Source: a virus. Taken from it: a stretch of 39,802 nucleotides of DNA. A program made the translations under genes and the position numbers. Numbering within the stretch: the stretch's first letter is position 1; every line of letters begins with the position of its first letter. Below the pieces are notes generated by a model that did not search any database, was not told the DNA's origin, and saw only the letters and a list, made by a program, of their open reading frames with translations. Below are positions 659-32,111 of the stretch, in pieces. Where the stretch lies: positions 1 through 39,802 of the IMG/VR virus record IMGVR_UViG_3300037882_002393. One strand, written 5' to 3'.

Positions 659-666
659 GTGTTGTT

Positions 667-1917: not shown

Positions 1918-1982
1918 TAAATATTCTTTACCTTAAACTATGAAATTAGGAGGTCGGCATGGAAATTGCTTAGATAAGAACA

Positions 1983-2020: not shown

Positions 2021-2026
2021 TTATCG

Positions 2027-2052
2027 CCACCTTTAGGTGATGGGTAGCTCAC
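2027..2052 (+). mobile_element. orphan IS200/IS605-type right-end copy
   Basis: These 26 bases are identical to the reverse complement of 39677-39702, the right end directly downstream of the tnpB fragment at the other edge of the window. The core CACCTTTAGGTG with flanking GGGTAG and a terminal TCAC is the pattern of right ends of TnpB-carrying IS200/IS605 elements. No transposase or TnpB reading frame is present on this side. The upstream arm lacks the GAAGCCC portion that lengthens the stem in the right-hand copy, so this hairpin is weaker (four base pairs, a mismatch, then about three more). Upstream sequences of the two copies do not resemble each other. Best explained as a deletion remnant or a tiny non-autonomous element between the DUF2800 and DUF2815 genes. 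Confidence 0.75.
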
Positions 2053-2075
2053 TCACTCAATGAAAGGACATGATT

Positions 2076-3209: not shown

Positions 3210-3378
3210 TATAGACGAACTCATAGAAAAGTTAAGCATTGCTAAAGAAGAAATGTCTTTAGCAACTGCAAAAGTCAACGAAATAATACATACTTTAAAA
3301 ATTTTAGGATTGAGCAAAGAAGAAATCAATGTCAAACTTACATTACAAAACAAAAGTAGAGCCGTTAAAAAGAATTGA
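3196..3378 (+). CDS. small coiled-coil protein, unknown
   Basis: A 60-residue frame from ATG 3196 (a GTG at 3190 would add two residues). It overlaps the end of the DUF2815 gene by 14 bases and the start of the polymerase gene by 50. The polymerase needs its start at 3329 because its exonuclease Asp is only at residue 23, so both overlapping frames could be used. The sequence alternates hydrophobic residues in a heptad-like way (IDELIEKL...MSLATAKVNEIIHTL) and ends in a basic tail, as a small helical adaptor or dimeric coiled coil would. The Shine-Dalgarno match is weak. No known family; gene status is moderately supported by its filling the gap between two real genes. Confidence 0.5.
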   Translation: MTRSSIDELIEKLSIAKEEMSLATAKVNEIIHTLKILGLSKEEINVKLTLQNKSRAVKKN

Positions 3379-5971: not shown

Positions 5972-7509
5972 TAACGAAAAGAGAACACCAACAAAAAGAA
6001 TTTGACGGACATAAAGACTCTAAATTAAGGGCTTTATTTTGGTATATGCGGGCTGGTAAAACAAAAGCAGCTATTGATTGGCTGCAACACAATTATACAC
6101 AAAATAGAATAAAGTGGGCTGTTGTTTTAGCACCAAATGGGGTGCATGAAAATTGGGTAGTTCAAGAATTGCCTAAGCACATGACAGTACCATATACTGC
6201 TATAGCGTTCCATAATGACTTAAAGAAACACCAATGGTTTAATATTAAGATTAATCGAGAACTATTAGATGGTAAAGACGATTTAAAGATATTTTGTATC
6301 CCAAAATCAGCACTTTCTTCCCCTTTTTCTAAGCGTCGTGTAGATGGTACGCGGGACGATAGTCTGATATATAGTGTTATAAAAGAATTAATAAAGATAT
6401 ATGACAAATCAAAATCTACAAAAACAGGTGCGTTGATCGTAGACGAAAGTCATAATTTTGGAGAGGTGAAAGCACTAACCGCTTTAAATGCTGCAAAGAT
6501 GTCTGAATGGATGGAATATAAAATGATCTTATCTGGAACTCCTATACATGAGGGTTTATATAAGGCATACTTACAATTCAAAATTTTAAGCCCCGACATA
6601 TTAGGGGCAAAAACATACGAAAGTTTTAAAGAAAAATTTGTTATAGAAGAAATGGTAGGAAAATCACGATTAGATAAGGTGACACAACAAGTTAAACGCA
6701 TAGTTCACCCTAAGATAGTAGGATACAAAAATGAGAGTGTTTTGCATGATTTGGTATCTCCGTATACGTCAGTTGTTACCCGACAAGACATAGGTTTATG
6801 TGAACGTGAATGTATTTATAGAAAAGGTAGGATGTCGACTGTAACACTTGCTTTTTATAACAAATTAGTAAAAGATAAAATGCTAGAAGGTATTTATTTA
6901 GACAATGAAGTTATAAATCAAAAATTATCACAAATATCATCGGGATTTATATATATCGATACGCTGGGAGGTAGAAAAACACACGTTATAGAAAAGCCAA
7001 AAGATAATATAAGATTTCAAATGCTCGAAAATGATATTGATAAAGAGCAAAAGACAATTGTATGGGTATTATACCAATATGAGGTTGAAGCAGTAACAAA
7101 ATATATAAATGAAGTTCTTGAAATAGAAGCAATATCATTTACTGGATCAAACGAAGAACGGTTGAAGAAAAAAAATCGTTTTCTTAATGTTAAATCATGC
7201 AAAGTTTTAGTTTCGCAGCCCAAAAGGTTACAGGAGGGACATGACCTTTCAAAAGCGGATACTATGATATGGTTCAACGCACCCACTTATCCGTTAGCAA
7301 GTTTCACGACATATGACCAAGCAAATGAACGGTTGAGCGATATTAGTTCCAAAACTGTAACTATCATACATTTCCAAGTAGAAGAAGCAGAAGATGAAGC
7401 TAAGTTCCTACTCATCCAAAATAAACAGGAAGCAAGTGTTGAAAATATCCAAGCAATAAAAACAAAAGCTATAAAAGGTAATTTGTTAGGTACTCCCAAC
7501 GATTTTTGA
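5968..7509 (+). CDS. SNF2/DEAD-like superfamily 2 helicase
   Basis: A 513-residue ATPase. Walker A is MRAGKT (residues 27-32), motif II is DESH (159-162, in ALIVDESHNFGE), motif III is ILSGTPIHEG, and the C-terminal RecA-like lobe holds a VLVSQPKRLQEGHDL segment with motif V/VI features around NAP and ANERLSD. The layout matches the compact SNF2-type helicases of phage replication modules. It probably remodels or unwinds DNA at replication or recombination intermediates together with the polymerase just upstream, whose stop codon it overlaps by four bases. The second Arg of the usual motif VI QxxGRxxR is not obvious: the equivalent is QANERLSD. The 3' end overlaps the oppositely oriented VRR-NUC gene by 24 bases, the meeting point of the two transcription blocks. 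Confidence 0.9.
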   Translation: MITKREHQQKEFDGHKDSKLRALFWYMRAGKTKAAIDWLQHNYTQNRIKWAVVLAPNGVHENWVVQELPKHMTVPYTAIAFHNDLKKHQWFNIKINRELLDGKDDLKIFCIPKSALSSPFSKRRVDGTRDDSLIYSVIKELIKIYDKSKSTKTGALIVDESHNFGEVKALTALNAAKMSEWMEYKMILSGTPIHEGLYKAYLQFKILSPDILGAKTYESFKEKFVIEEMVGKSRLDKVTQQVKRIVHPKIVGYKNESVLHDLVSPYTSVVTRQDIGLCERECIYRKGRMSTVTLAFYNKLVKDKMLEGIYLDNEVINQKLSQISSGFIYIDTLGGRKTHVIEKPKDNIRFQMLENDIDKEQKTIVWVLYQYEVEAVTKYINEVLEIEAISFTGSNEERLKKKNRFLNVKSCKVLVSQPKRLQEGHDLSKADTMIWFNAPTYPLASFTTYDQANERLSDISSKTVTIIHFQVEEAEDEAKFLLIQNKQEASVENIQAIKTKAIKGNLLGTPNDF

Positions 7510-7999: not shown

Positions 8000-8028
8000 A
8001 CTATAGCACATATTTTATTTAATATAAA
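8000..8028 (-). promoter_or_regulatory. weak candidate promoter for the VRR-NUC gene
   Basis: On the minus strand TTTATA (8023-8028), a 17-base spacer and TATAGT (8000-8005) precede the VRR-NUC start by about 25 bases. Only the -10 is good and the region is very AT-rich, so chance is a real possibility. If real, it would give the nuclease its own expression apart from the late transcript. Confidence 0.25.
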
Positions 8029-8471
8029 GGTTTATAAATTTCTATATAGTTAGATAAATTAATTAAATGTTTTCGCATAAGAGGTTCGACTTCCTCCCAA
8101 TTTAAACCTCCAAGTCCGCACCCTAATGCAGGTATAGCAATGGATAAATCAGGTCTGTTAGCTAATATCGAGGATAACATCGTTAAAGAATTTTCCACCA
8201 ATAATAAAGACGATTTTTCTACCCATTTATCTTTTGTAACAACATGGAAAATAATTTTTCCATTTTCTTGTTCCAGAGATACATATATAGGATTATAAGG
8301 AGATATTGATCCATTTAAACATTTTTCTCTATAAACTCTATAATTTATAGGGAATTTTTGTTTAAACTTTAAGGCAAGACCAGCACCCATGACCCCTTCA
8401 CAATTTACAGGGTTTACTAATGCTTCACATTTTGATTTAAATATATCACCTTGTTTAAGTATAATTGTCAT
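8019..8471 (-). CDS. DarG/TARG1-like macrodomain protein
   Basis: A 150-residue single-domain macro protein predicted to bind ADP-ribose and possibly remove it from nucleic acid or protein. Seen in the sequence: the ALVNPVNCEGVMGAGLALKF phosphate-binding segment, a TKDKW motif with Lys80 at the place of the catalytic lysine of DarG/TARG1-type macrodomains, and the second loop AIPALGCGLGGLNW. These features are closer to the DarG antitoxin macrodomain than to MacroD enzymes. No DarT toxin gene is nearby, so it is a stand-alone version. DarT ADP-ribosylates thymine in DNA and DarTG is a known anti-phage system, hence a counter-defence role is a reasonable inference. Its start overlaps the DUF4326 stop (ATGA), so the two are coupled. 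MGAG here replaces the MGKG common in DarG. Confidence 0.9.
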   Translation of the reverse strand: MTIILKQGDIFKSKCEALVNPVNCEGVMGAGLALKFKQKFPINYRVYREKCLNGSISPYNPIYVSLEQENGKIIFHVVTKDKWVEKSSLLLVENSLTMLSSILANRPDLSIAIPALGCGLGGLNWEEVEPLMRKHLINLSNYIEIYKPLY

Positions 8472-8764
8472 TCATCACCTTTTTTAATTTCTAAAAATTT
8501 TGCTACCAAGATGTCTCCATGACATTTTTGAGGTTTACAAAAACACACTAGATTTTTACCTTCTAAGTTTAAAATATCTTGTTTTGTTATGTTTCCCATC
8601 TCTATCTGTTGGTCTAAAAAACCCCTGTATTTAGCTATAACCTGATCTCTACAGGTACTTTTATCTAAAACAAATGGATTCCCAAATTTACTTGGTCGCC
8701 CAATATAAACATCGTTATTTTCTGGTATGTGTTTATATTTATTTACAACTTTAGGTATTGTCAT
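8468..8764 (-). CDS. DUF4326 family protein
   Basis: A 98-residue protein with both family hallmarks: VYIGRPSKFGNPF near residue 20 and the C-terminal LVCFCKPQKCHGDIL segment with its conserved Cys and His. DUF4326 proteins are common in phages; their activity is not established as far as I know, though the conserved Cys/His pattern suggests a metal site or catalytic center. It is followed without a gap by the macrodomain gene (four-base overlap), which makes a shared pathway, perhaps nucleotide or ADP-ribose chemistry, plausible but unproven. An AGAGGTG ribosome site precedes ATG 8764, inside the end of a possible short upstream peptide. Confidence 0.9.
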   Translation of the reverse strand: MTIPKVVNKYKHIPENNDVYIGRPSKFGNPFVLDKSTCRDQVIAKYRGFLDQQIEMGNITKQDILNLEGKNLVCFCKPQKCHGDILVAKFLEIKKGDE

Positions 8765-10306: not shown

Positions 10307-10347
10307 CAATGACTACTCCTTTTACGTATATTAAGCAATTTTTATGC

Positions 10348-12753
10348 CTAAATCGCGGTAAACGTTCTATGCTCAAAAAACAATGATTTAATCGAATTTA
10401 ATTCAGCGTATACTTTTAAATCTATGACACCAGTGGCAAAAACTACGGACGCACTTGTACCAGTACCTAGATTCTGAGTATTCAAAGACCCCCCGTTGAC
10501 AGTCCACTCGGCTATATAGTTGGTTGTTGAAACAGGTGTTTCGTCCCCGTCTCCAGCTCTATGTAATAATGTTTTAGATTTTTCCCTACGCTCCCATGTA
10601 AGTGGTATTGACCCAGCCGTCACAGAAAGTGGGTGACTAACACCATCGACCGTTAGACTTGTTGGACAGTATGCCCTCGATGCCCTAGCGTCTAAATCTA
10701 TTGTTCTTATAGTACAACTTGTTAAGTCCAACGACTGTGTTGCGGTATTAGGTCTGAGTTTTACGTCCATACTAGAAGACCCTACACTTAGGTTCTCTGC
10801 GAAGCGATTGCTTAGATCGTCTAAAAACCAAACCCTTGAATCAACAATATGAGCCTCCTTAGCAGTATCCATTAACGCCCTCCAAACATTGTTGAGGGTA
10901 TAAGTACCATTAAGATTATCTGTAAAACTTTCGTAAGAAAAAATCTCATTATTTATTTTTATAAGATTTGTTCCGAACTCCCGTATTTCGCTCGGAGTTG
11001 CTGTGTTGAAGCTAGTAATGTTAGATACATCTTTTAAAATTATAGATGATCCATAATAGTTCCCAGTTATGGGTACTGCAGTATGAACCCTCGCATGTGA
11101 AGCGAAAACGACATTCTCTAAATCCTCTAAGAAAATAGAATCAGCTTCATAATAAGTATCAAATGTCGATTGGGTCGCATTTATCGCTAACGCATTATAT
11201 ACTAAATAGCTGCCTTCTACAGCATAGCTAGACCCAGTCATATTGTTCCGTAGTGCTAATAGCCATCTTGGAGATTCAAAAATATCGTAGTTGCTAATAT
11301 CTATAGGAGTGAAGTCTTCCTCTATAAACCCACTGTTAGGCAATGAAAATCCAGAACTATCAGAGAAAGTATCCTCTGCAAATTCTAAATAAATGTTAGG
11401 AGAAGAATCATCTCCATAATCAATCTTAGATACCCTACATATCAATTCCGAAATAGAATATTTAGCATAGGTTAATTTAAAAACGCTACCCGGTAATAAA
11501 GAATGTGATTTTCTATTAACAACCAATCTACCTTTAAATCTAGGTTTCTGGTAATTCACGATTTGTCTAGCAGCAAGTTTAGCAGCAATTGTCTTGTCAT
11601 ATACCAAATCAAATGTTGTAGAGTAGGTTTCTATCTTATTCTGCATAGAAATTATAGCATCGTTCTGAAAAACGACCGTCTTTTCAAAATAACTATCAGA
11701 CCGATCTTTAAATTGGGCTTGGATGCGTCCTTTCATATTATTCCAAGTCTCAATTGATATGTCAGATAGAGATACTATTTGATCGTCATCAATTATGGGT
11801 AGGCTAGAAGGTACATAATCATTACGGATTAACTTTATCTCTATTTTACCAGTTCTAAAATTTTCATAAAGAATACCATCTATAATTTCTAATATTTTAT
11901 TGGCGACTGTTTCGAAAGAATCAGATGTTGGTACAAAACAACTCAACCAAATATCTTCACTTATCAATGTAGAAACGGCATCTCCCCAACTGACGCTATC
12001 GATCCTGCTGTTGGCAATTCCAACCCTACCAGTGGGGGATATAAGTAAGTTATATAGTATTTCCATAGGACTTAAATCATTACCATCTGGAGAGGTTCCA
12101 GCACCTAAAACATTCGGTAATGATTGTACTTCCGCCGAGATTGTAGGTATAACAATATTGCCTCCGCCAAACCCAGCTTCTAAAAGTAAAGGTTGCTCAC
12201 CGACAAGATACATTATATTTCTATAGCCGACTTGAAAACCTGATTTTGTCGTTAAATATGTATTATCAGGTTGAGATGGTGAACCAGAATAAAACCTAAA
12301 ATTACCAACTACCCCACCGCCTTTCTTATATCCACCTAAAACATTTGGGGCAGAAACATTAAATAACGACCCGTTGCCAATTTGGCTACCAGACCAAATT
12401 TGTTTATCTTTATTAACAAATATTTTCTTCAAAGACGCTGTGGTTGGGTAATTAGATATACCAAGTGCTAACGCAAATCCTAGATAAATCTGTTGAGCCA
12501 CATCAACTTTAGTACTACTGAATAAACCAGTCTTATGTTTCTCTCTTATTATAACCGACCTAAAGTCGCCATGCCACAAGAAGGTGGGGTTTTCAACAAG
12601 AACTGTCCCCAGAATAATATTAACAGGCACGCCCTGATCTATTTTCGGAACGTCCACGTCTTTAAAGGTCGATGCTCTAGCTCTATTCGTTTTTGGTTTA
12701 GGGGCTAATAGACTTAATATAAGTGAAGCGACGAAAAATATAATAGCGAACAT
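10348..12753 (-). CDS. tail tip / central tail hub protein
   Basis: An 801-residue tail protein of the phage-tail family that includes gene transfer agent and lambda J-like hub proteins. The N-terminus has a hydrophobic stretch (residues 1-16) followed by a basic region and then VPVNIILGTVLVENPTFLWHGD, the signature of this family. The middle part has beta-rich baseplate-hub features and the C-terminus looks immunoglobulin-like, as in receptor-contacting tail tips. It is the last gene of the tail operon and follows the Cys-rich gpL-like protein with a one-base overlap, the same order as in lambda-type and gene-transfer-agent tails. Likely role: tip of the tail, host contact and start of DNA delivery. 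No peptidoglycan hydrolase motif seen in it. Confidence 0.8.
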   Translation of the reverse strand: MFAIIFFVASLILSLLAPKPKTNRARASTFKDVDVPKIDQGVPVNIILGTVLVENPTFLWHGDFRSVIIREKHKTGLFSSTKVDVAQQIYLGFALALGISNYPTTASLKKIFVNKDKQIWSGSQIGNGSLFNVSAPNVLGGYKKGGGVVGNFRFYSGSPSQPDNTYLTTKSGFQVGYRNIMYLVGEQPLLLEAGFGGGNIVIPTISAEVQSLPNVLGAGTSPDGNDLSPMEILYNLLISPTGRVGIANSRIDSVSWGDAVSTLISEDIWLSCFVPTSDSFETVANKILEIIDGILYENFRTGKIEIKLIRNDYVPSSLPIIDDDQIVSLSDISIETWNNMKGRIQAQFKDRSDSYFEKTVVFQNDAIISMQNKIETYSTTFDLVYDKTIAAKLAARQIVNYQKPRFKGRLVVNRKSHSLLPGSVFKLTYAKYSISELICRVSKIDYGDDSSPNIYLEFAEDTFSDSSGFSLPNSGFIEEDFTPIDISNYDIFESPRWLLALRNNMTGSSYAVEGSYLVYNALAINATQSTFDTYYEADSIFLEDLENVVFASHARVHTAVPITGNYYGSSIILKDVSNITSFNTATPSEIREFGTNLIKINNEIFSYESFTDNLNGTYTLNNVWRALMDTAKEAHIVDSRVWFLDDLSNRFAENLSVGSSSMDVKLRPNTATQSLDLTSCTIRTIDLDARASRAYCPTSLTVDGVSHPLSVTAGSIPLTWERREKSKTLLHRAGDGDETPVSTTNYIAEWTVNGGSLNTQNLGTGTSASVVFATGVIDLKVYAELNSIKSLFFEHRTFTAI

Positions 12754-15248: not shown

Positions 15249-16298
15249 TTATGTCACCTTTTTTACTAAAAGGGCAAAATATTGAGATGAATTTCTAATA
15301 GTAGACGAAACTTCCCCACTAGGTATTTTTATAACTGAATCTTTTTTCCTAAAAGGAAATATTTGATAAGTATCGCTTCCATATGTTATTTCATCTCCGG
15401 GATTTTGATTTTTTATATTGCCAACACCGATATTGGGGGCAGAACCAACATGCCAATAACTTGTCGCTAAACTAGGAAATTTTACATTAAATAGAATGGG
15501 GAATATGGCTGTTGATCCGGTATGTGATACAATACCACCAACCATACCTAGAGACCAATAATTCATCCGGTTATATAGGAGATTGCCGTATATATAATCT
15601 CGATCCATTAGCCCTTGACAAGCGTCCCCAAATGCAAATGGGGTCGCATACTGTCCCCCACCACCATATGCTTGTTGTCCTTTATAGTTTACGCATACAT
15701 TCGCAATTTGATCTAAATAATCTCCGACAAAACGGTGTACTGACCCCCTAAAATCAGCATCATTCCTAGAACTATAAGTAAGAGACGTAGCCCACCAAAC
15801 GTAATAACTCGCAAACATATATGCCCCAGCCCCTGCTGCGGTAACGTTACTAGATGTCTCGGACAATCCAAAGGAAAAATGTGTCCAATGCCCTGCTCTT
15901 GTCTCCACAAAAACATGGACGTAAGGAAAGGTAGCTCCCGACCCACTGGTATGGATATGATATGTCATATTAATATTCGCTAAATCATTCGCCCTAACAA
16001 CGTTCGATGCTGTTGTTGATGTTACATTACTTTCAGGCTGAGACGTGAAACTCGTTCCTGAAAAAGACGTGCTTAGTGCCATGACTACCCTACCATCTGT
16101 TCTGGAGATGGAATAAGCGTCATTAAAAGTACTAGATACATATTGAAACCTTGCGTATACTGTTCCAATAGACAGTCCCATCATACCACCGGAACTAAAA
16201 TTATCTACAAATACAGACCATCCGTCTGTAATAGCCGCATTCTTAACCTGTAGCATTAACGCATTTATATCTGCTGCGGTACCTGTATAATAAGCCAT
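15249..16298 (-). CDS. virion structural protein, fibre-like paralog A
   Basis: A 349-residue protein rich in Ser, Thr, Gly and aromatic residues, with no charge clusters or known catalytic motif. It is related to its upstream neighbour: both start MA..TGT and place a Gly-Trp pair about 27 residues in, both have a PI.LFNV-like motif in the last third, and both end with a GSDTYQIF / GANTYRVF segment and a short hydrophobic C-terminus. The composition suits an exposed tail or tip appendage. The ATG is coupled to the upstream stop by a one-base overlap. Exact role unknown; similar tandem genes occur in tail modules of siphophages. Confidence 0.6.
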   Translation of the reverse strand: MAYYTGTAADINALMLQVKNAAITDGWSVFVDNFSSGGMMGLSIGTVYARFQYVSSTFNDAYSISRTDGRVVMALSTSFSGTSFTSQPESNVTSTTASNVVRANDLANINMTYHIHTSGSGATFPYVHVFVETRAGHWTHFSFGLSETSSNVTAAGAGAYMFASYYVWWATSLTYSSRNDADFRGSVHRFVGDYLDQIANVCVNYKGQQAYGGGGQYATPFAFGDACQGLMDRDYIYGNLLYNRMNYWSLGMVGGIVSHTGSTAIFPILFNVKFPSLATSYWHVGSAPNIGVGNIKNQNPGDEITYGSDTYQIFPFRKKDSVIKIPSGEVSSTIRNSSQYFALLVKKVT

Positions 16299-17242
16299 TA
16301 TGCCTCCAGAATCATATATTTATTTGCAATAGGTTGTCCCGTAGCCGCCCCTTGAAATACTCTATAAGTATTAGCACCAATGGTTAAAGTACTCTCAGCT
16401 GCTTGAGGCTCAAAAGCATGATACACCCCCTCCAACATACCGTAAAATGATCCATTTTCTAAGACATTAAACATAACTAATGGTATAACTGGGAAAGACG
16501 ATACCGACGCACCAAATGCAGCATTTTGTAAGTTGAAAGAATAAATGTAATTAGTTCCTCCATACTGCCCATAATATGCGTTCATAGACGGTATAATCGC
16601 CCCACCATCCGTAGAACCAAAAATAGATCTATTGCTATAACCGGAATCAAAATTTCTTATACTCTGCCAGATACCAGCAACATCTCTTAAATATACTTGA
16701 GACTCACCGGGACAAAAAAACCCTCTACGTTCATCAATCAAAGTATCTGAAAACTTTTTTATAGTAGATGTCCCCTGACTACCGATACAAAGAGGGAACG
16801 GATATTCTACGGGCGTACATAATGGTTTATAAAACCCAGCATAAAGGGCTGAATATGATGTACTAGATTTTATGACAACGATAAATCTTGTATTTGATAC
16901 ATAAAACCAATAAGTCATAGTCCCATTTGTGGTGGGGAACACCGCATATTGTGTAGCCGAAGTACCGAGCTGTAAATCAATAGCTACACCACTTGTATAG
17001 CTAACAGCCCCAAAAACATCAAACCCATATGTTTGAGTTGTATTATTTCCATACGTTCTAATATTAATATGAACAGGAGTACCTATGGAGGTACCAGTTC
17101 CTTTTAAAAAAATAGTATCTGGGTCTTCTACAGTCGCACCAACAGTATGGCTGAGCGATGTCCAGCCATTAGCCAATAAAAAAGTTTTTAGCTTTCCTAA
17201 TAAATCTTTTAAGCCTGTTGAAGTACCTGTCTGTACTGCCAT
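16298..17242 (-). CDS. virion structural protein, fibre-like paralog B
   Basis: A 314-residue Ser/Thr/Gly/aromatic-rich protein, paralogous to the next gene in its first 30 and last 100 residues but diverged in the middle. The central part contains the Cys pair PLCTPVEYPFPLC. The beta-rich, low-charge composition and place in the tail-tip operon indicate a virion component such as a tail-side appendage. It begins eight bases after the small membrane protein gene ends. No known function. Confidence 0.6.
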   Translation of the reverse strand: MAVQTGTSTGLKDLLGKLKTFLLANGWTSLSHTVGATVEDPDTIFLKGTGTSIGTPVHINIRTYGNNTTQTYGFDVFGAVSYTSGVAIDLQLGTSATQYAVFPTTNGTMTYWFYVSNTRFIVVIKSSTSYSALYAGFYKPLCTPVEYPFPLCIGSQGTSTIKKFSDTLIDERRGFFCPGESQVYLRDVAGIWQSIRNFDSGYSNRSIFGSTDGGAIIPSMNAYYGQYGGTNYIYSFNLQNAAFGASVSSFPVIPLVMFNVLENGSFYGMLEGVYHAFEPQAAESTLTIGANTYRVFQGAATGQPIANKYMILEA

Positions 17243-17250
17243 TTATAAAC

Positions 17251-17469
17251 CTATTTTTTAGAGTTTTTTGCTTTCCCATAATTATCTGCAACGATATTCA
17301 AAATATTTAAAATAATTTGTAAATATTTATTTTTAGAATAGCTAGGGATCAACGTCATTAATAACGCAATTATTTTAGTTATAATTAAAACTGCTGTAGA
17401 AATTACAAGAGTTTCTTCATTTATGCCAACCGCTTGTATAGTTGTACTTATTTGTCCCAAAAAATCCAT
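17251..17469 (-). CDS. small membrane protein, holin candidate
   Basis: A 72-residue protein from ATG 17469, chosen because AAAGGA lies seven bases upstream; an upstream start at 17493 has no such site. It has one clear hydrophobic helix of about 23 residues (TLVISTAVLIITKIIALLMTLIP), a second amphipathic, hydrophobic stretch (LQIILNILNIV) and a basic tail ending in NSKK. Size, topology and charged C-terminus are those of a holin or other small inner-membrane protein. No endolysin gene is adjacent, the GH24 lysozyme being 16 kb away in the head module, so the holin assignment is tentative. It is the first gene after the candidate small RNA terminator. Confidence 0.65.
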   Translation of the reverse strand: MDFLGQISTTIQAVGINEETLVISTAVLIITKIIALLMTLIPSYSKNKYLQIILNILNIVADNYGKAKNSKK

Positions 17470-17514
17470 GTCTGTATCCTTTATCAATACCAATACTATA
17501 ACATAGATTTAAAG

Positions 17515-17543
17515 ATAAAAAAAGCGGCATTTTATAAACCGCT
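17515..17543 (-). terminator. Rho-independent terminator
   Basis: On the minus strand, AGCGG (17539-17543) and CCGCT (17523-17527) form a GC-rich five-base-pair stem around an 11-base AT loop, followed at once by a run of T (A run on the plus strand at 17517-17523). Read toward the tail genes this is a normal intrinsic terminator about 40 bases beyond the predicted start of the 17593-17621 promoter. The A-run to the right also gives T residues on the other strand, so weak bidirectional activity is possible. Confidence 0.75.
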
Positions 17544-17586
17544 CGAGTTTTTTGAAAGGAGATGATATTAATAACAGAGTATTAAC
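17515..17586 (-). ncRNA. candidate ~70-nt phage small RNA with anti-SD seed
   Basis: The promoter at 17593-17621 would start transcription near 17586. Within about 70 bases the transcript would meet the terminator at 17515-17543. Between the two there is no start codon with a usable ribosome site. The predicted RNA has three parts: a 5' hairpin from TTAATA and TATTAA, an unpaired pyrimidine-rich stretch containing AUCAUCUCCUUUC, and the terminator hairpin. The middle stretch complements Shine-Dalgarno sequences of the form GAAAGGAGA. That is the usual arrangement of a regulatory small RNA. It could instead be a leader with an attenuator for the tail-tip operon, relieved by antitermination. 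Confidence 0.5.
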
Positions 17587-17592
17587 TTGACT

Positions 17593-17621
17593 ATAATAAT
17601 ATGGTAAATCTTAGATGTCAA
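17593..17621 (-). promoter_or_regulatory. sigma-70 promoter at the end of the NrdJ gene
   Basis: On the minus strand: TTGACA (17616-17621), a spacer of exactly 17 bases, and TATTAT (17593-17598). The -35 matches the consensus fully and the -10 in five of six positions. The TGA stop codon of the NrdJ gene (17618-17620) is inside the -35 box. It points to the candidate small RNA and the tail-tip operon. Confidence 0.75.
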
Positions 17622-20600
17622 GAACATCCTGTCGTAACTCCACAAGTATTACATTTTTTACAAGTCCCATTCATGACAAGAGTGAAATTGCCACATTCAG
17701 GACATGCGTCACCAGTATACCCTTGTTGTTTTGATAACTCGCTCTTTGATGGTTTTAGGAATTTTCCTATACTATGCTCAGGTTTTACTTGGGCTACATC
17801 ATATCTACCTAAATAGTTCACGGCAAGGTCTCGCATAACTAAATCTATAATTGATTGTGCGGACTTTATATTTTCATGACATTGAACCATACCTGCTGGC
17901 TCAAATTTCATATTTAATAGTTTATCAACAATTGCGTCTAGTGGTACTCCATACTGTAATGCGATGGAAACCGTTATGGAAAAAGCACTTAAAATACCTT
18001 TCAAAGCACTCCCTTCTTTATCCAAGTCTATAAATACCTCACCAAGCTCGCCGTTGTCGTACTCGCCTGTTCTAATATAGAATTTTTGCCCCCCTAGTTT
18101 AACTTTTTGAGTATATCCTTTTGTTCTTTTATTTGGTAAATTTTTCCTCGTTAAGATATGTTCAATATTCGATGCAACATTTTTTATGATTTCACCTGCG
18201 TCTTCAATAGCTTCATCGAACTTAGCGTTCAATGGTTGAGATAACTTAGATCCATCAACATATAAAGCCACAGCTTTCAGTCCGAGAGCATGTGATTTCA
18301 AATAAATATCCAGACAATCTTTTGGTGTTGCGGTTGAAGGTAGGTTGACTGTTTTAGATATTGCACCAGAAATAAATGGCTGAGCAGCCGCCATCATTTT
18401 TATATGAGCATCCGCAGATAAAAACCTACGTCCTTCCACGCCACACTTATTCGCACAATCAAAAATAGATAAATCGGAATCCTTTAAGTGGGGTGCATTT
18501 TCAATCGTCATAGTACCAAAAAGGAATCTGTTAATTTCTTTTATTTGTTCAGATGTTAGATTGAAATAATCGAGTATTCCACGACCTAAATCTGATTTTT
18601 TTGTGACGTTGTCGGGTATTTTTGGTAAAGGAACAAAAGAAATATCAAAACTTGTCTCTAAATTATTTTGGAATTCTCCTATCCATTCTGAGCTAAATCC
18701 CAACTCCATGAGGCTTATAGGATTTATATGTGGGGATTTCATAAATTGTTGAGGGTTTCCAATAATGTACCCTATTATATCCCCAATCTCTTCGGAGTTA
18801 TACCCTTTAGTCTGTAAAGCTGGAGTAACTGATTGATTGACAATCTTTCGATAACCACCACCTGCAAGTTTTTTGAATTTTACGAGAGCGAAATCGGGTT
18901 CTATACCTGTAGTATCGCAGTCCATGACTAAACCTATAGTCCCTGTTGGAGCAATGACGGTTGCTTGAGCATTCCTAAATCCATATTTACTACCGTCTAA
19001 GACAACTTTTTCCCATTCCCCTACCGCTAACTCAAACAGGTGGTGGTTTTCCGATTGTGTGTCTTGTTGTCGTAGCATCCGTTTCATGACCGTACTGTGG
19101 TTATCCATAACATCTAACATAGATACCCTATTCTGCTCATATCCTTGAAACGCTCCCAGTATCTTAGCCATCTCTATGGACGCATTGTAACTACTAGAGG
19201 TCATTATAGATGATACCAAACTACAGAAATCTCTACCGTAGTCACTATCATATGGTACACCCCACTTCATTAAACAACCTCCTATGTTTGCAAAACCAAG
19301 CCCTAAAGGTCTGAATTTGTAAGACATCTCTGCAATATTTTTGGTTGGGAATTGAGCCAGATATACTGATATTTCTAAGACGTAAGTCCATAGACGACAA
19401 ATATAAATGAAGTCTTCTATGTCTTCATTTTGAATATTCTTACGTTTAAAAACATTCGATAAATTAATTGATGCTAGATTACAAGCAGTATTATCTAAAA
19501 ACAAAAATTCCGAGCATGGATTAGATGATTTTATTTCATCGGTCGCTTTACAAGTATGCCAATATTGTATTGTATCCTTGAAATGAATACCGGGATCAGC
19601 ACTTCTCCACGCAGCGTACCCTATAGCCTCAAATAGTTCTTTAGATTTTAGTTCCTTAAATAATTTGCCGTCTGTTCGGTTTTTTAACTGTATTGTTGCA
19701 GCATCCCCTAAATCGATATAATCCTGAATTACTTTATTACTTAAACGTACCGAATTATTAGAGTTTTGACCACTGACCGTAGCGTATGCCTTGCCCTGCC
19801 AATCTGTAGTCACGGTATCTATATCCAGAAAAGTCTTATTTAAATCATATTGGTCTTTTGCTGTCTGCATAATTCGAGCTGGGACTCCATCTTTTACAGC
19901 ACGACTAGCGATATGTTTAAAGTTCTCAGGATTGTTCTTAAATTCAGTTAAATATTTTCTTATAAGATGAGACCCCGTAACCATCATTGCGACTTTATCT
20001 TCTTCTTTTACTTTCCAATTGATAAAATCTAAAATTTCTGGATGGTCTTCATCCAAAACGAGCATCATAGCACTGCGTCTCGTTGTTCCACCCGATTTTA
20101 TAGCACCGCCCGCAGCATCACGCACGTCTAAAAAGCTCATTAAACCAGATGATACGCCACCACCACTTAACTTTTCACCTTTACCTCTGATAGTAGAGAT
20201 GTTACTTCCAGCACCCGATCCATGTTTAAATAACCGTACTTGAGTCTCAATCCAACTAAATATTCCCTCTTCACCTACTAAATTATCTTTCACTGGAGTA
20301 ATGAAACAAGCATGTGGTTGCGGTCTTTCATATTTACTTGTAGATTTAACAGCTTTACCTGCCTTTTCGTCATAATAGTAGTGTCCGTCACTAGGGGTAT
20401 CTATACCATAAGCCCAATGTAAACCCGTATTAAACCATTGAGGAGAGTTAGGGGCTACTATTTGAAAATATAACATATAATAAATTGCATTATAAAACTC
20501 GTCTGCAGATTGTTGATCCGTAAAGTACCCACCTTTACAACCCCAATACGTCCATGCTCCTGCAAGGCGATGAAATACTTGATGTGCTGAGGATTCACGA

Positions 20601-20908
20601 GTAAACCCAGTTTCTTTCCAAGATTCTCCGTTTTCATGCTCTAACATCTTTTCGTCTGGGACTGACCTCCAATACCTTTCTGGTATGCCCGCTTCTTTTA
20701 CTTTCTTAGTGTATCTTGGGACTCCAGTTCTCCTAAAGTATTTTTGAGCTAGTATATCTATAGCTGTTTGAGACCAATGTGCTGGTGCAGTTATACCTTC
20801 TTGATTAAAAACGATGCTACCGTCAACATCTGTAATCCTACTAATAATATTATGATTGTAGTTACCCGCAAGATTTATATCAAATCTTTTTTCAACTTTT
20901 AAACCCAT
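17618..20908 (-). CDS. nrdJ: B12-dependent ribonucleotide reductase (class II)
   Basis: A 1096-residue adenosylcobalamin-dependent ribonucleotide reductase, making deoxynucleotides from ribonucleotides without oxygen dependence. Landmarks: the first redox cysteine at Cys201 in HACFITP, the radical site Asn463-x-Cys465-x-Glu467 in SNPCSEF, the substrate-phosphate loop APTGTIG, and a C-terminal Cys-rich region CPECG...CKKC...CG...GCS that relays reducing power. Full length for the family. It starts at ATG 20908 behind AAAGGAA and stands between the tape measure and tail-tip genes, an odd place for a metabolic enzyme. It implies that the host imports or makes B12. Expression with late genes or from its own weak promoter in the 20909-21032 gap is possible. 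Confidence 0.95.
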   Translation of the reverse strand: MGLKVEKRFDINLAGNYNHNIISRITDVDGSIVFNQEGITAPAHWSQTAIDILAQKYFRRTGVPRYTKKVKEAGIPERYWRSVPDEKMLEHENGESWKETGFTRESSAHQVFHRLAGAWTYWGCKGGYFTDQQSADEFYNAIYYMLYFQIVAPNSPQWFNTGLHWAYGIDTPSDGHYYYDEKAGKAVKSTSKYERPQPHACFITPVKDNLVGEEGIFSWIETQVRLFKHGSGAGSNISTIRGKGEKLSGGGVSSGLMSFLDVRDAAGGAIKSGGTTRRSAMMLVLDEDHPEILDFINWKVKEEDKVAMMVTGSHLIRKYLTEFKNNPENFKHIASRAVKDGVPARIMQTAKDQYDLNKTFLDIDTVTTDWQGKAYATVSGQNSNNSVRLSNKVIQDYIDLGDAATIQLKNRTDGKLFKELKSKELFEAIGYAAWRSADPGIHFKDTIQYWHTCKATDEIKSSNPCSEFLFLDNTACNLASINLSNVFKRKNIQNEDIEDFIYICRLWTYVLEISVYLAQFPTKNIAEMSYKFRPLGLGFANIGGCLMKWGVPYDSDYGRDFCSLVSSIMTSSSYNASIEMAKILGAFQGYEQNRVSMLDVMDNHSTVMKRMLRQQDTQSENHHLFELAVGEWEKVVLDGSKYGFRNAQATVIAPTGTIGLVMDCDTTGIEPDFALVKFKKLAGGGYRKIVNQSVTPALQTKGYNSEEIGDIIGYIIGNPQQFMKSPHINPISLMELGFSSEWIGEFQNNLETSFDISFVPLPKIPDNVTKKSDLGRGILDYFNLTSEQIKEINRFLFGTMTIENAPHLKDSDLSIFDCANKCGVEGRRFLSADAHIKMMAAAQPFISGAISKTVNLPSTATPKDCLDIYLKSHALGLKAVALYVDGSKLSQPLNAKFDEAIEDAGEIIKNVASNIEHILTRKNLPNKRTKGYTQKVKLGGQKFYIRTGEYDNGELGEVFIDLDKEGSALKGILSAFSITVSIALQYGVPLDAIVDKLLNMKFEPAGMVQCHENIKSAQSIIDLVMRDLAVNYLGRYDVAQVKPEHSIGKFLKPSKSELSKQQGYTGDACPECGNFTLVMNGTCKKCNTCGVTTGCS

Positions 20909-20948
20909 GATGTAATTCCTTTCAATTGTTCTAATTAAGACTTACTAC

Positions 20949-20969
20949 TTTAAAACATTCTGTTTTAAA
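20949..20969. repeat. 8-bp perfect inverted repeat in the nrdJ upstream gap
   Basis: TTTAAAAC (20949-20956) and GTTTTAAA (20962-20969) are separated by five bases in the 124-base gap between the tape measure stop and the nrdJ start. It may end or slow transcription from the tail genes, or act as an operator or leader hairpin for nrdJ. It lacks GC pairs and a T run, so an ordinary intrinsic terminator is unlikely. A possible weak promoter further upstream (TTGCAT, 17 bases, TAATAA on the minus strand) is too poor to annotate. No riboswitch-like B12 motif is apparent in so short a leader. Confidence 0.5.
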
Positions 20970-21032
20970 AATCCACTATTAAATGGAATATTATTATCTT
21001 ATTTTCCTCTGTCATGCAAAACAAGTGCCAAG

Positions 21033-24000
21033 CTAGTTTAGAAATCGTTTTACTTCTTCTTTATTGGCTCTTAGAGTATTCATAATTGCATTTTTACCTA
21101 AAGGAGTACCTAGCATCCCTATCATCTGTTTTGGATCAACAACAACATTATTAATAACATTCGGAGCTTTAACAGTCACTGGTTGTAATTTTTGATTATC
21201 GGTTTTTTGTTCTGGACGTGTTATGCTAACCCGCTCCCCACCTGAAACCCTAAAAGCAGCTACTTTATTATCAATACCGGGATTAGCCTTCGGTACCTCA
21301 AAACTACCTCCAGTATTAAAGCCTGATAAAAGGGATAGTCCACCAGACAAAAGTCCGCCAATATCAAAACCTCCGCCGCCAGACGAACCACCAAATAAAG
21401 ACCCGACACTACCTATTATAGATTGCAAGGCAGATCCGAAACCACCGCCAACATCTAAGATAGAACTAGAAGCCTTGTCCCCAGCATTAGCAATTTTCTC
21501 CCCTGCTTCTGTTAAAGGATCAGCAAGATTTGTACCACTAAAATCGAATAATTTAGGGAGGGTATCCTGAGCTGGTAAGTTTACGGCAGTACCGTTCACA
21601 AACACTGTTTGGGCTTGAATAGTTTTATCCTGTTGTAACAGACTTGGATCATTTATGTTACCAAACCCTAAAGACTCAGTCACCGAACCTAGAAGCCCCT
21701 GTTCCCCAAATAAAGAATTTTGAAGGGCATTAGCTCCTTGTTTAAATAGTCCTCTTGCAGCTTCTTCTTGTATTCCTTTTAAAAGACCGGTTATGGTGTC
21801 GAGAGAAATGTCGCCAGTTGTTGCCAGCTCTACAAAAGCATCTTCGATGTTATTAACAGCATTAAGGACTATATTCTCAGATACTTGAGCAACATTTAAT
21901 AACTCTTCCTGCACTTTTACTAACCCCCTCAAATACCCCGATTTCTCATCTAATTTAGTATCTAAAAATGCTCTTGTTAATTCGAGTTGTTTGGGGAGAG
22001 TTTGATCTAAAGTTAGTTTATACCTATCTGTCGCTTGATTTAAATCCTGCATACCCTGAACATAATCTTGAACAGGATTAACAATATTTCTATAAATATC
22101 GTCTTGAGCTTTTATTCTATTCGCAAGTTCTTCGTTAAACACAATTCTTTGTTTTATCTTTTCGATTTCTTCTTGACCAACTTGGTTCAAACGTAGTCCA
22201 GATTGTTCAACTGCACGTTCTGCTTGTTCTTGAACCCTACGAGCTTCAACCCCTAACTTAATTGCTGTGGTTTCCCGATCCAGCTCGGTAGTAATATCTG
22301 ATAGTGCTTTTGGTACTACAGTCGCCTCTATAGCTTTAAGCTGTTTATAAAACCCAGTAAAAGCATCCTTTGATATAACGCCCCTTTTCTCGGCGGATTC
22401 TATTTTATCAAAGAGAGAATTCAACCCTTGTAATGCTTTTTTAGGAGTATCTACTTGAGTCTGCAAATCTATTAAAGATTTATTAAAACTCTCAATAAAC
22501 TTTTCTGAATCAGACTTCTTTGGTTTCCTAGCTTTTTTGGGACGTGAATCTTTAACCGCTTTACTAAACTTATCGTCAGCCCCAATCTCATCGATAATTT
22601 TATTTACAGTCTCAATATCTTTTGTCAAGTCCTCTAAATTAAAGCCTTCCGATAAACCAAACTGTACAACCCTCTTAGCAACATCTGTACTTATTTTACT
22701 ATTCTTTGCTAAGTCAGTAATAAATCCCCTTCTTTTACTATTATTTGTAATGACGGTCTCGAGGTTAAGTTTTGTTAGTTTTTCAGAGTCAGATAAGAAA
22801 GACTGTAAATTCTTTTGCTCATTTTGTAATAACTGTCTTTCCTTAGACCCTAAACTAGGATTAGATAAATTCTTACTAATATCAGATAAAGCTACCTCTG
22901 CTTTTTCCCTACCACCTTTTAATTCAGATCCACTAACCGATCTACCTAGCCCAAGAGCTTTAGCCAGCAACGCATTTTTTGCAAATAACTTTGCAGATGT
23001 TGAAGCATTATTATATTGTGTCTGTATAGTTAAAAGGGCAGAAGAGTTTGCGTCTATAGCAGCCGCCGCTTCATAGGATATACTTTTAACATCGTTTAGT
23101 GCATTGCCATAAAGTTCAGATTCAATTTTTGACTTATCACTTTCTTCTTGTGATTGTGTTAATTTGTCGATCTGATCTACAATAGAATCATTTGCTTCGC
23201 TTAAAGATTGTGCCAGTAAAACAGATTGCACATCAGCTAATTGACTGGATTTATCGGCATAATCCTCGATCGATAAAGACCCCTCTTGAGCTTTTGTGAA
23301 ATATTCGTCCTGTGCGTCTGTGACGATTTTATATGCTTCCGATAATCCTTTTAAATTATCGTCAAAGTCCAAAACTTTGTCTTGTAATTTAACAATTAAC
23401 TCTTCGGCTTCAATTAATGGTTTCGTAAAATCTTTAATAGCATTTTTAGCACCCTCTGATTCTATACTTGCTAAATCTAATTTTGGGATTTTCCTTTCAA
23501 CAGGTGCTGATCTATCCTCGATAGATGCCCCTAATATCTCGTTTTCTCTTTGAAGTTTCTGTAGCTTTTCGTCTATCTGTTTAGACTCTACATCATTTAA
23601 CGAATTTTTTATTTTCTGTAAATTTATAATTTCTTTTTGATTAAATAACAATTGGTCAGCGTCTCTAATTTTACGGGCATCCCTATTGGCAGTATCAAGC
23701 CCACCAGTCAAAAGAGATGTTTGAATCCCAGTCTCTTTATTAACCTCCCGTAAATATTCTTGTAGCTCTTTTTCTTTTGCTTTTAATACCTGTAATGAAG
23801 CAGAGCTACCTTGAATATCACCTGATTTTGCTAACTTTGCCCCAGCCGCCGCTAACTGCGAATATTCATTTTTAAGAGTTTTTAGTTTAGAAGTTTGTTC
23901 GTCACTTAAAGCAGTGATGGCTCTACCAAATTTTTCGGTACTTTCAGTTGCATCGTCAACAGCAAAATAATATCCAGCTATCGCTGATACAGCCAATGCC

Positions 24001-25586
24001 GCCAATGCTGGTATGGCTGTTAGGGGGTTTGATAACAAAGCTAGTGTAAAACCTTTTATTGCAACCGCCGCCCCCAAGAAAGCTGTAGAAAGACCAGCCA
24101 ACGAAATCGACGATACAGCACTAGCCGCACTAGACGCTAATAGAGCCAACCTATTTGATCCCAATAAAGTTGTATTGGTCGTTATTGCCCCACTATTTGT
24201 TATCTTAGCACCACTATTTATAGCAGTAGCCGCAGCGTCAGATATAGCCGCCGCCTTAGAGGCATTAACTGCTACTGTATATGCGACAGCTCCCGTACGT
24301 AATGCCCCATAAATCCCCACAATTGCAGTGTACCCTACAATAATAGACTTATAAAGGATGGTCACTGCCTTAAGACTAATCCATGCCGCCGTTATGCCTG
24401 TTAAAGCAGATATAACAATGTCAGAATTGTCAATAACAAGATCAAATATACCCTGTATCAATCCTATAATTTGCCGCCCGTCAACAGATAATAGTGATTT
24501 TTGAATATTATTTGTGAGCTGAGTAAACTGATCACCAATAGATGGTATAGTACTAGCAAATTCAAAATTTATTTTATCTGTCTGGGTCTTTAACGCTTCA
24601 AATACTAACTCTGTCTGTAATACGCCCTCACTACCTAGCTTACGTAAATCCCCCAATATAATATCACTATCAAGTCCTTGTTTTATATTTTCTATAACGC
24701 TCTGTAATTTCTGCGAAGCCTGACCATCACCGACTGCATTCAACCCATCAACTAACGCTTGTCCGATTCTAGGGGCTTGTTCCAAAACAGAACGTAGTTC
24801 GTCACCACCTAACCTATTAGACGCTAAACCTTGAGAAAACTGTACAATTGCTGCTTCGGTTTCCTTCGAAGAATTACCATAAACCTTAGATGCTTTGATT
24901 AGGGCTTCTGTAACGTCCAATACTTGGTTGGATGCCTTACCATATGCTTCCGTACTTCTCGCTAAACGAGAATAGATTTCCCCTGTCAGAGTTAAGCTCG
25001 TTCTTGCTCTACTAGATGCCTCATCTAAACCATTGAATAATCTTATAGACGCTTCTTGACTTCCCGCTAAAGTCCTGATTCTATTTTCTAACCCAAATGA
25101 AGCATCTACAACATCCGTGAAAATACGTGCTATTTGTATGGCTGAATACGCCTTAGCTATTGTATTCAAGTTGACAAAAGACGATGATACATCATTCACT
25201 TTTGTATTAAGGGCATCAAGTGAACTCAAAACAGGTTTTACTTCAACGTCTTGTTTTCTACGACCACCTCCAGATGCCCGTGACTCTGTCCGTTTCTCAA
25301 CAGTCTCTACTTCTAACTTTATTTTCTTATCGGAAAATTTTTGACTTTTTGTTAATTCAACCACCTTCTTGTATTCCGCTTGAAATACTTTAAGCTCGTC
25401 TACGTTCCCTTTTATCGCAGAATTAAAAGTATCAATATTTTGATTTTGAAATTTTAGAGTCGATAAAGTATTACTAAGATTCAAAGCAGTCGTAGCTGTT
25501 TTCTCAAGAGTCGCCGTTAGTTTCTTTAAGTCTTTATCTGCTTTTTCTAATCCTAAAGCCTGTACTTTTATGGTTATATCAGTCAT
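21033..25586 (-). CDS. tape measure protein
   Basis: At 1517 residues the longest gene of the window, setting tail length and running inside the tail tube. The N-terminal 350 residues carry the tape-measure domain: FGLENRIRTLAGSQEASIRLF, then a stretch with SRARTSL, LYSRLARS-like and QFSQGLASNRLGGDELRSVLEQAPR. Hydrophobic, Ala-rich membrane-like segments lie around residues 390-560, a long helical coiled region follows, and the C-terminal 120 residues are Gly-rich and end with the FRVSGGERVSITRPEQ segment shared by many siphophage tape measures. Its ATG overlaps the stop of the gp10-like gene (25583-25586). By the usual rule of about 1.5 angstrom per residue the tail should be roughly 0.2 micrometres long. 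Confidence 0.95.
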   Translation of the reverse strand: MTDITIKVQALGLEKADKDLKKLTATLEKTATTALNLSNTLSTLKFQNQNIDTFNSAIKGNVDELKVFQAEYKKVVELTKSQKFSDKKIKLEVETVEKRTESRASGGGRRKQDVEVKPVLSSLDALNTKVNDVSSSFVNLNTIAKAYSAIQIARIFTDVVDASFGLENRIRTLAGSQEASIRLFNGLDEASSRARTSLTLTGEIYSRLARSTEAYGKASNQVLDVTEALIKASKVYGNSSKETEAAIVQFSQGLASNRLGGDELRSVLEQAPRIGQALVDGLNAVGDGQASQKLQSVIENIKQGLDSDIILGDLRKLGSEGVLQTELVFEALKTQTDKINFEFASTIPSIGDQFTQLTNNIQKSLLSVDGRQIIGLIQGIFDLVIDNSDIVISALTGITAAWISLKAVTILYKSIIVGYTAIVGIYGALRTGAVAYTVAVNASKAAAISDAAATAINSGAKITNSGAITTNTTLLGSNRLALLASSAASAVSSISLAGLSTAFLGAAVAIKGFTLALLSNPLTAIPALAALAVSAIAGYYFAVDDATESTEKFGRAITALSDEQTSKLKTLKNEYSQLAAAGAKLAKSGDIQGSSASLQVLKAKEKELQEYLREVNKETGIQTSLLTGGLDTANRDARKIRDADQLLFNQKEIINLQKIKNSLNDVESKQIDEKLQKLQRENEILGASIEDRSAPVERKIPKLDLASIESEGAKNAIKDFTKPLIEAEELIVKLQDKVLDFDDNLKGLSEAYKIVTDAQDEYFTKAQEGSLSIEDYADKSSQLADVQSVLLAQSLSEANDSIVDQIDKLTQSQEESDKSKIESELYGNALNDVKSISYEAAAAIDANSSALLTIQTQYNNASTSAKLFAKNALLAKALGLGRSVSGSELKGGREKAEVALSDISKNLSNPSLGSKERQLLQNEQKNLQSFLSDSEKLTKLNLETVITNNSKRRGFITDLAKNSKISTDVAKRVVQFGLSEGFNLEDLTKDIETVNKIIDEIGADDKFSKAVKDSRPKKARKPKKSDSEKFIESFNKSLIDLQTQVDTPKKALQGLNSLFDKIESAEKRGVISKDAFTGFYKQLKAIEATVVPKALSDITTELDRETTAIKLGVEARRVQEQAERAVEQSGLRLNQVGQEEIEKIKQRIVFNEELANRIKAQDDIYRNIVNPVQDYVQGMQDLNQATDRYKLTLDQTLPKQLELTRAFLDTKLDEKSGYLRGLVKVQEELLNVAQVSENIVLNAVNNIEDAFVELATTGDISLDTITGLLKGIQEEAARGLFKQGANALQNSLFGEQGLLGSVTESLGFGNINDPSLLQQDKTIQAQTVFVNGTAVNLPAQDTLPKLFDFSGTNLADPLTEAGEKIANAGDKASSSILDVGGGFGSALQSIIGSVGSLFGGSSGGGGFDIGGLLSGGLSLLSGFNTGGSFEVPKANPGIDNKVAAFRVSGGERVSITRPEQKTDNQKLQPVTVKAPNVINNVVVDPKQMIGMLGTPLGKNAIMNTLRANKEEVKRFLN

Positions 25587-29977: not shown

Positions 29978-30739
29978 TTATTTAGCTTTATTGTCTACAG
30001 TTTTAACATCGGGTGCTTTCTCACCTTCTGAATCAACTTTTTCTAAAGTAGGTTCTGGTTTAGGAAATAGTTTACTGAAAGAATCATCTATTTTTCCACT
30101 TTCCACTACACTATCTATTTTAATAGACGCTTTACTTTTTTTCCTTTTTTCAGATTGAGCTAACTCCTCTTGTAATATTTTATTCGCCATCTCTTCGATT
30201 TCAACTTCTCTCAATTGAGCTAGAGCTTTCTCTTTAGCAATCGCTATGGCAGCATTTCTCTTATCGATAGCTCGAGTATATCCCTCAAGGATTTCAGATA
30301 TTTTTCTTGATTCTTCAATATTAGAAGCCCTCTTCTCTATGCCTAATGTAGCCATAGTTTCTTTTAGTTCTTTTGAAAGTTTTAATATGCCTTCAAGAGC
30401 GTTTGCGTTAGAATTGTCTGTAAATATAAAATTCATTTCTATTAATGCAAATTGTATCTTCATATAGTCTTCTACAGTAACATTACCCATAACATATACA
30501 TCAGTATCAGCATGTTGTACTATAAATTCTTTACCTTGTCTTTGCTCTTCTGGCAATAGCCCATTATTGATAAATTGAAAGAGATGGTTCCAAGACCTTA
30601 AATCAAAATTTAAATGAGCGGCATAGTTCCTCTGTACCATGTATATCTCATATCTTTGTGTAGTTGCATATGTGCTTTTTTTAAAATCAAATTGAGAATA
30701 TAAATCAGGTATTTGGGCGTAGGTTGTATCGTTTGTCAT
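29978..30739 (-). CDS. structural-region protein with coiled coil
   Basis: A 253-residue protein between the capsid gene and the head-tail adaptor. The first 110 residues are globular and Tyr/Phe-rich; residues about 120-195 form a long charged helix likely to be coiled (IEESRKISEIL...LAQLREVEIEEMANKIL); the end is Lys/Glu/Pro-rich and disordered. No catalytic motif and no signal peptide. The place and build suggest a virion or assembly protein such as a head decoration or internal protein, or an assembly factor, but I cannot name the family. The ribosome site AAGGAG precedes the ATG. Confidence 0.6.
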   Translation of the reverse strand: MTNDTTYAQIPDLYSQFDFKKSTYATTQRYEIYMVQRNYAAHLNFDLRSWNHLFQFINNGLLPEEQRQGKEFIVQHADTDVYVMGNVTVEDYMKIQFALIEMNFIFTDNSNANALEGILKLSKELKETMATLGIEKRASNIEESRKISEILEGYTRAIDKRNAAIAIAKEKALAQLREVEIEEMANKILQEELAQSEKRKKSKASIKIDSVVESGKIDDSFSKLFPKPEPTLEKVDSEGEKAPDVKTVDNKAK

Positions 30740-30767
30740 TGTAGTCTCCTTATTCAGTATAATATTA

Positions 30768-30797
30768 ATAGTCTAAACCTAGCATGGTTTAGACTAT
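30768..30797. terminator. 12-bp perfect inverted repeat after the capsid gene
   Basis: ATAGTCTAAACC (30768-30779) and GGTTTAGACTAT (30786-30797) flank a six-base loop between the capsid stop and the next gene. The stem is strong for this AT-rich genome. There is no T run after it, so it may act as partial terminator or as a 3' stabilizer of the capsid mRNA. It overlaps the candidate promoter at 30776-30805. Confidence 0.6.
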
Positions 30798-30805
30798 GAT
30801 GTCAA
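30776..30805 (-). promoter_or_regulatory. candidate promoter overlapping the capsid hairpin
   Basis: On the minus strand TTGACA (30800-30805) with 18 bases to TAGGTT (30776-30781). The -35 is perfect, the -10 poor. The hairpin of 30768-30797 covers the spacer and -10, so this looks either like a regulated promoter or like a -35 lookalike beside a terminator. Confidence 0.4.
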
Positions 30806-30815
30806 CTATTTATTG

Positions 30816-32045: not shown

Positions 32046-32054
32046 GTTTAATTC

Positions 32055-32095
32055 CTTTTCTATCTATGTATTAATTTTTACCATAGATAGAAAAG
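32055..32095. repeat. 14-bp perfect inverted repeat before the capsid gene
   Basis: CTTTTCTATCTATG (32055-32068) and its exact reverse complement (32082-32095) flank 13 bases. In a transcript reading through from the scaffold gene the hairpin would take up part of the AAAAGG ribosome site of the capsid gene. A transcript begun at the 32075-32103 promoter would start inside it and leave the site open. So the repeat could let the promoter, not the read-through, set capsid translation. It could also be a terminator or operator. Confidence 0.75.
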
Positions 32096-32103
32096 TTAGT
32101 CAA
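32075..32103 (-). promoter_or_regulatory. sigma-70-like promoter for the capsid gene
   Basis: On the minus strand TTGACT (32098-32103), 17 bases, TAAAAA (32075-32080), in the 66-base gap after the scaffold stop at 32112. The -35 matches five and the -10 four of six positions. Its spacer carries one arm of the 14-bp inverted repeat and its -10 lies in the loop. Confidence 0.55.
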
Positions 32104-32111
32104 CGGGTATT

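Follow-up and report, generated by a model that had tools for sequence, protein, structure and literature searches.

A candidate small RNA with an anti-Shine-Dalgarno-like stretch in the 3' untranslated region of a phage nrdJ gene

Background

Does the short gap behind the ribonucleotide reductase gene of a phage give rise to a small RNA (sRNA) that acts on ribosome-binding sites (RBSs), or does it contain no more than the end of one message and the signals for the next? The question is raised by a virus record of 39,802 bases, analysed in full and referred to here as the window, in which the 148-base gap between nrdJ and the gene for a 72-aa protein, on the minus strand, holds a predicted short RNA with a stretch resembling the anti-Shine-Dalgarno (anti-SD) sequence. 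Outside lambdoid prophages, only a small number of phage sRNAs have, to our knowledge, been described. If the RNA exists as predicted, a seed resembling the ribosomal tail and carried on a nucleotide-metabolism gene would tie enzyme supply to translation control.

Results

The gap belongs to an insert carrying nrdJ

Plus-strand genes span positions 185-7509 of the window, and every gene beyond, from 7.5 to 39.6 kb, is carried by the minus strand. There, an insert of about 3.8 kb comprises, in order, a 124-base gap, nrdJ, the 148-base gap and the 72-aa gene (Table 1). The NrdJ protein is 45% identical to its counterpart in Bradyrhizobium phage BDU-MI-1, and the 72-aa protein had no tblastn match among phages. 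Three related phages, Sphingomonas phage Birtae, Burkholderia phage AH2 and Brevundimonas phage Fanboy, encode structural proteins with 28-33% identity to the one encoded at 16298-17242; in each of them the structural gene begins 1-6 bases after the tape measure gene, without an insert at that place. An earlier, sequence-only reading of the locus had described a promoter and a terminator with no gene between them; the gap is indeed free of genes, and what that description left out is the nrdJ insert around it.

In the 124-base gap upstream of nrdJ, TGGCACTTGTTTTGCA (21030-21015) agrees at every position with TGGCAY-N5-TTGCW, used here as the sigma-54 -24/-12 consensus. With this sigma-54-like promoter before nrdJ and a terminator after it, the insert looks, by sequence, like a self-contained cassette. 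Phage morons are extra genes that sit within a late operon, each equipped with a promoter and a terminator of its own. The nrdJ insert is similar to them in that the gene stands between adjacent late genes, is missing from that place in relatives and has a putative promoter and terminator, and unlike them in the sigma-54 type of the promoter before nrdJ and in the presence of a second predicted promoter inside the 3' UTR.

Table 1. Features of the nrdJ insert and of the predicted RNA (all on the minus strand of the window)
Feature	Positions	Strand	Basis or remark
Insert between tape measure gene (21033-25586) and structural gene (16298-17242)	17243..21032	-	Missing in three relatives
Sigma-54-like promoter TGGCAC-N5-TTGCA, upstream of nrdJ	21015..21030	-	Consensus match
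nrdJ, B12-dependent class II ribonucleotide reductase	17618..20908	-	Pfam PF02867, PF08471, PF12637
Putative -35, TTGACA	17616..17621	-	Shares TGA with nrdJ stop codon (17620-17618)
Putative -10, TATTAT	17593..17598	-	17-nt spacer from -35; RNA start presumed near 17586
Predicted RNA of ~70 nt, 3'-UTR-type sRNA candidate	17517..17586	-	Fold, z -3.26
Weak A/U-rich 5' hairpin, predicted	17567..17586	-	Fold; alone no better than shuffles
Unpaired AUCAUCUCCUUUC, anti-Shine-Dalgarno-like	17554..17566	-	Fold; 12/13 identity to 16S 3' tail
Intrinsic terminator (GC stem, 9-11-nt loop, seven U), common to nrdJ	17517..17544	-	Fold and strict search
TGT-TATAGT, possible extended -10 promoter candidate for 17251-17469 and tail genes	17495..17503	-	By eye
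72-aa small membrane-like protein	17251..17469	-	Weak PHROG match phrog_15362; ATG at 17469

A promoter at the nrdJ stop codon and a terminator behind it

The near-consensus promoter of the sequence-only reading is present on the minus strand, where TTGACA-N17-TATTAT at 17621-17593 agrees with the consensus at 11 of 12 letters. Sites of this quality number four in the whole window, both strands included, against 1.8 expected; taken alone, the score is unremarkable, and the position is more telling. Although gaps make up only about 4% of the sequence, 4 of the 14 minus-strand occurrences of TTGACA touch an intergenic gap, and a twin 11/12 site at 28575-28547, standing ahead of a structural gene, likewise overlaps with its -35 the TGA stop of the gene upstream. 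The chance of finding such a site inside this stretch of about 60 nt is about 0.1%.

The intrinsic terminator also holds, with a GC stem at 17544-17522 and a seven-U run at 17523-17517, giving the predicted RNA the length of about 70 nt that had been proposed. It begins 74 nt past the nrdJ stop codon and ends about 76 bases past the -10. A strict search, for perfect stems of 5 or more pairs followed by 6 or more T, gave no other terminator on the minus strand, and for the two strands combined 0.29 would be expected; an automated promoter and terminator scan had missed this one because of its 9-11-nt loop. The terminator is most readily accounted for as the place where the inserted nrdJ cassette and its message end, which would make any RNA from here a 3'-UTR-type sRNA and not a free-standing gene in an otherwise unoccupied gap. 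The seven-U 3' end of the predicted RNA is compatible with Hfq binding. From these elements we infer that promoter and terminator are probably functional, in which case the promoter would fire and a short RNA would be made and accumulate.

Fold of the predicted RNA and likeness to the 16S tail

Folding of 17586-17510 gave -11.5 kcal/mol against -4.6 +/- 2.1 for shuffled sequences (z -3.26), whereas the predicted RNA without its terminator had a z score of -0.2. The whole RNA therefore folds better than shuffles mainly because of its terminator, and the 5' hairpin is called weak because the remaining part folds no better than they do. With that qualification, the weak 5' hairpin, the unpaired AUCAUCUCCUUUC and the terminator hairpin are all predicted as previously described.

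The usual 3' tail of 16S rRNA is ATCACCTCCTTTC. In the window, ATCATCTCCTTTC is identical to this typical tail at 12 of 13 letters. A match of this quality is expected 0.045 times per shuffled whole window and was seen at a frequency of 1e-4 (1/10,000) in shuffled 77-mers of the same composition; both figures are upper limits of surprise, since the comparison was picked after the sequence was known. The bare 7-mer CTCCTTT occurs at chance level, with 7 copies in the window and 6.6 expected. By reading the sequence, no peptide with an RBS was found inside the RNA of about 70 nt. In the read-through RNA 17586-17470, no antiterminator or RBS-sequestering fold was better than shuffles, the alternative long-range helix having a z score of -1.6.

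Pairing with ribosome-binding sites

The seed had been said to complement AAAGGAG sites before many genes, among them the G chaperone and phoH. Both were rightly named, but AAAGGAG stands before only 3 of the 37 genes (9827, 26321 and 38897); the shorter AAAGGA is found before eight. The longest unbroken complementarity to the unpaired region is that of the G chaperone RBS (10 nt, UUGAAAGGAG), followed by the nrdJ RBS with 9 perfectly complementary nt (UUGAAAGGA), that of phoH extending over 7 nt only. Two matched letters beyond the SD sequence are, for their part, to be expected somewhere among 37 genes. Over the phage start regions, the mean duplex energy was -8.6 kcal/mol against -7.7 +/- 0.45 kcal/mol for shuffled seeds, 4% of which paired as strongly with these regions. 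Such energies suit an anti-SD RNA in general and only hint at specific targets.

Searches for relatives of the RNA and of the phage

The predicted RNA had no match at gathering score among 4227 Rfam families. Two DNA patterns derived from it gave 2 and 44 matches in IMG/VR, none with the layout of promoter, seed and terminator; most lay inside or adjoining long open frames, and the few matches examined closely resemble ordinary RBSs of the opposite strand. No DNA similarity of the window to phages was detected, and peptide-based searches of IMG/VR for close relatives of the structural protein, the 72-aa protein, NrdJ, the terminase and the capsid yielded none that were useful. Within GTDB genomes, in a set chosen by the search peptides, NrdJ matches showed about 45% identity and came mostly from Bacteroidota; a host assignment on this ground was dropped because of the bias that those peptides introduce.

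Discussion

A 3'-UTR-type small RNA and its rivals

We tentatively favour, as a reading that falls somewhat short of probable, an sRNA of the 3'-UTR type that is transcribed from a promoter of its own, ends at the terminator of nrdJ and exposes an anti-SD stretch able to pair with SD sequences. According to this model, the sigma-54-like promoter would transcribe nrdJ and the terminator at 17544-17517 would stop its message, while the TTGACA/TATTAT promoter at the nrdJ stop codon would initiate within the 3' UTR and, using the same terminator, yield the RNA of about 70 nt. The exposed AUCAUCUCCUUUC would then pair with SD sequences and reduce translation of the best-matched messages, the candidate phage targets being nrdJ itself and the tail-assembly chaperone, with host genes possibly included. 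Action in trans on translation, likewise an inference, is the more doubtful part of the scheme and rather less likely than not. The promoter (11/12 letters), the preference of TTGACA for gaps, the twin site at 28575 and the sole strict minus-strand terminator argue for this reading, as do the fold (z -3.26), the 12/13 match to the 16S tail, the 10-nt and 9-nt complementarity to RBSs, the absence of the cassette from Birtae, AH2 and Fanboy, and a layout known from DapZ/MicL and from alphaR8/SisA. It is weakened by the roughly two such promoters expected per window, by pairing marginally above that of shuffled seeds, and by searches that found no RNA homologue, close phage relative or Rfam match. 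What survives of the idea of an sRNA acting on ribosome sites is that promoter, terminator and exposed anti-SD stretch make a short RNA plausible; a stand-alone gene is the less likely picture.

The main rival, possible though somewhat doubtful, is that the TTGACA/TATTAT promoter serves the 72-aa gene and the tail genes past a leaky or antiterminated terminator, the short RNA being a by-product or an attenuated leader that plays no part in trans. The tail operon is uninterrupted in relatives, but here the insert puts a terminator inside it, so that the essential tail genes beyond, about 7 kb in all, require either a promoter or read-through, and the other TTGACA promoters of this phage directly precede structural genes. 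A promoter ahead of a strong terminator would, however, be a poor means of downstream expression, and the possible extended -10 at 17503-17495 sits past the terminator, where it could serve the same genes; moreover, the read-through RNA has no antiterminator fold, and the anti-SD stretch is left unexplained.

The promoter might instead be a chance match in an A+T-rich gap, with the nrdJ terminator alone functional and the anti-SD stretch plain 3'-UTR sequence. The number of equal-quality sites expected by chance (about 1.8 per window), the chance frequency of CTCCTTT and the shuffle-like folding of the terminator-less RNA are in line with this account, which the gap-enriched TTGACA, the geometry shared with the twin at 28575 and the probability of about 0.1% for the stretch of about 60 nt render unlikely. 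We consider it very unlikely that the locus is a fossil or unused plus-strand RBS, the relic of a lost gene, in which ATT occupies the start-codon position, correctly spaced from GAAAGGAGATGAT. Nearly all of the 44 IMG/VR copies of the same 17-mer do lie beside or within long open frames, those examined closely resembling RBSs of the opposite strand, but no plus-strand gene or remnant is found downstream, in a region whose genes are all on the minus strand.

Comparison with known regulatory RNAs

The favoured sRNA arrangement has precedents. Salmonella DapZ, whose promoter lies just upstream of the stop codon of its parent gene, is, like E. coli MicL and Vibrio MicX, a 3'-UTR-derived sRNA with its own promoter (PMC9438474). 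As in these cases, the predicted promoter of the phage locus sits where the preceding coding gene ends, and mRNA and sRNA would have one terminator in common; the locus differs in that the parent is a phage nrdJ, the seed resembles the 16S tail and the RNA is a predicted one. The alphaR8 RNAs (SisA-D of Caulobacter) consist of a weak 5' hairpin and a Rho-independent terminator with a single-stranded anti-SD core between them, the conserved 5'-UUUCCUCCCU-3', and by pairing near start codons they repress translation (PMC12559287). The predicted phage RNA has the same succession of weak hairpin, single-stranded anti-SD stretch and terminator, whereas its core is AUCAUCUCCUUUC and not UUUCCUCCCU, it is phage-borne, and it shows no Rfam or sequence kinship; membership of alphaR8 was rejected on the missing UUUCCUCCCU core. 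Other short phage RNAs are the anti-sRNAs AsxR and AgvB, which antagonise sRNAs (PMC4104026), and the c4 RNA of P1/P7, which pairs around the RBS of defined targets and blocks translation (reviewed in PMC12197685); in the parts of these accounts consulted, they lack a 16S-tail-like stretch.

Further sequence elements of the window

Sigma-54-like sites, defined by at most one mismatch to TGGCAY-N5-TTGCW with GG and GC intact (GG-N10-GC), number four in sense gaps against 0.005 in shuffled gaps. They lie at 1955-1970 (+), 10334-10349 (-), 21015-21030 (-) and 35413-35428 (-), preceding gene 2070, the DHFR gene, nrdJ and the 52-aa ORF/portal genes, respectively. None was found in the gap stretches examined in three relatives, and a literature search on sigma-54-dependent phage genes returned nothing relevant, its partial coverage making this weak evidence. 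Promoters of this kind indicate a regulatory input that is apparently little studied in phages.

At about +3 of the promoter 35428-35413 begins a stable hairpin, GGGACGCAGG...CCTACGTCCC (35350-35400, minus strand, z -3.94), the loop of which contains TCATCTCCTC and CCTCC and has the 9-mer TCATCTCCT in common with the seed of the nrdJ 3' UTR. By its sequence it may be a second anti-SD element. It is distinctly unlikely, in our estimation, that two or more RNAs of the phage, one from the nrdJ 3' UTR and one with this hairpin loop, expose a 16S-tail-like sequence that includes TCATCTCCT and serve to lower translation of SD-dependent messages during infection.

A perfect 26-base inverted repeat, CCACCTTTAGGTGATGGGTAGCTCAC, occurs at 2027-2052 (+) and 39677-39702 (-), the minus-strand copy coming after an open frame that ends in ...GEAGKEIDIGLEAHHL; the arrangement resembles a TnpB C-terminus and its omega-RNA end, a likeness that no family or tblastn match confirmed. 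At 1-184, eight copies of the 12-base tandem repeat AGAACCTAAGGT encode EPKV repeats in frame with the ORF at 185-658, the start of which therefore probably lies past the contig end. A macro-domain gene at 8019-8764 (-) adjoins a DUF4326 gene. Ahead of the gene at 29978-30739, TTGACA precedes an inverted repeat, AGTCTAAACC-ATGCTA-GGTTTAGACT (30740-30815, minus strand), an arrangement that looks like an operator. Finally, the hairpin CTTTTCTATCTATG/CATAGATAGAAAAG at 32046-32111 (-), immediately ahead of the major capsid gene, overlaps the AAAAGGA ribosome site, which makes translational control of that gene possible.
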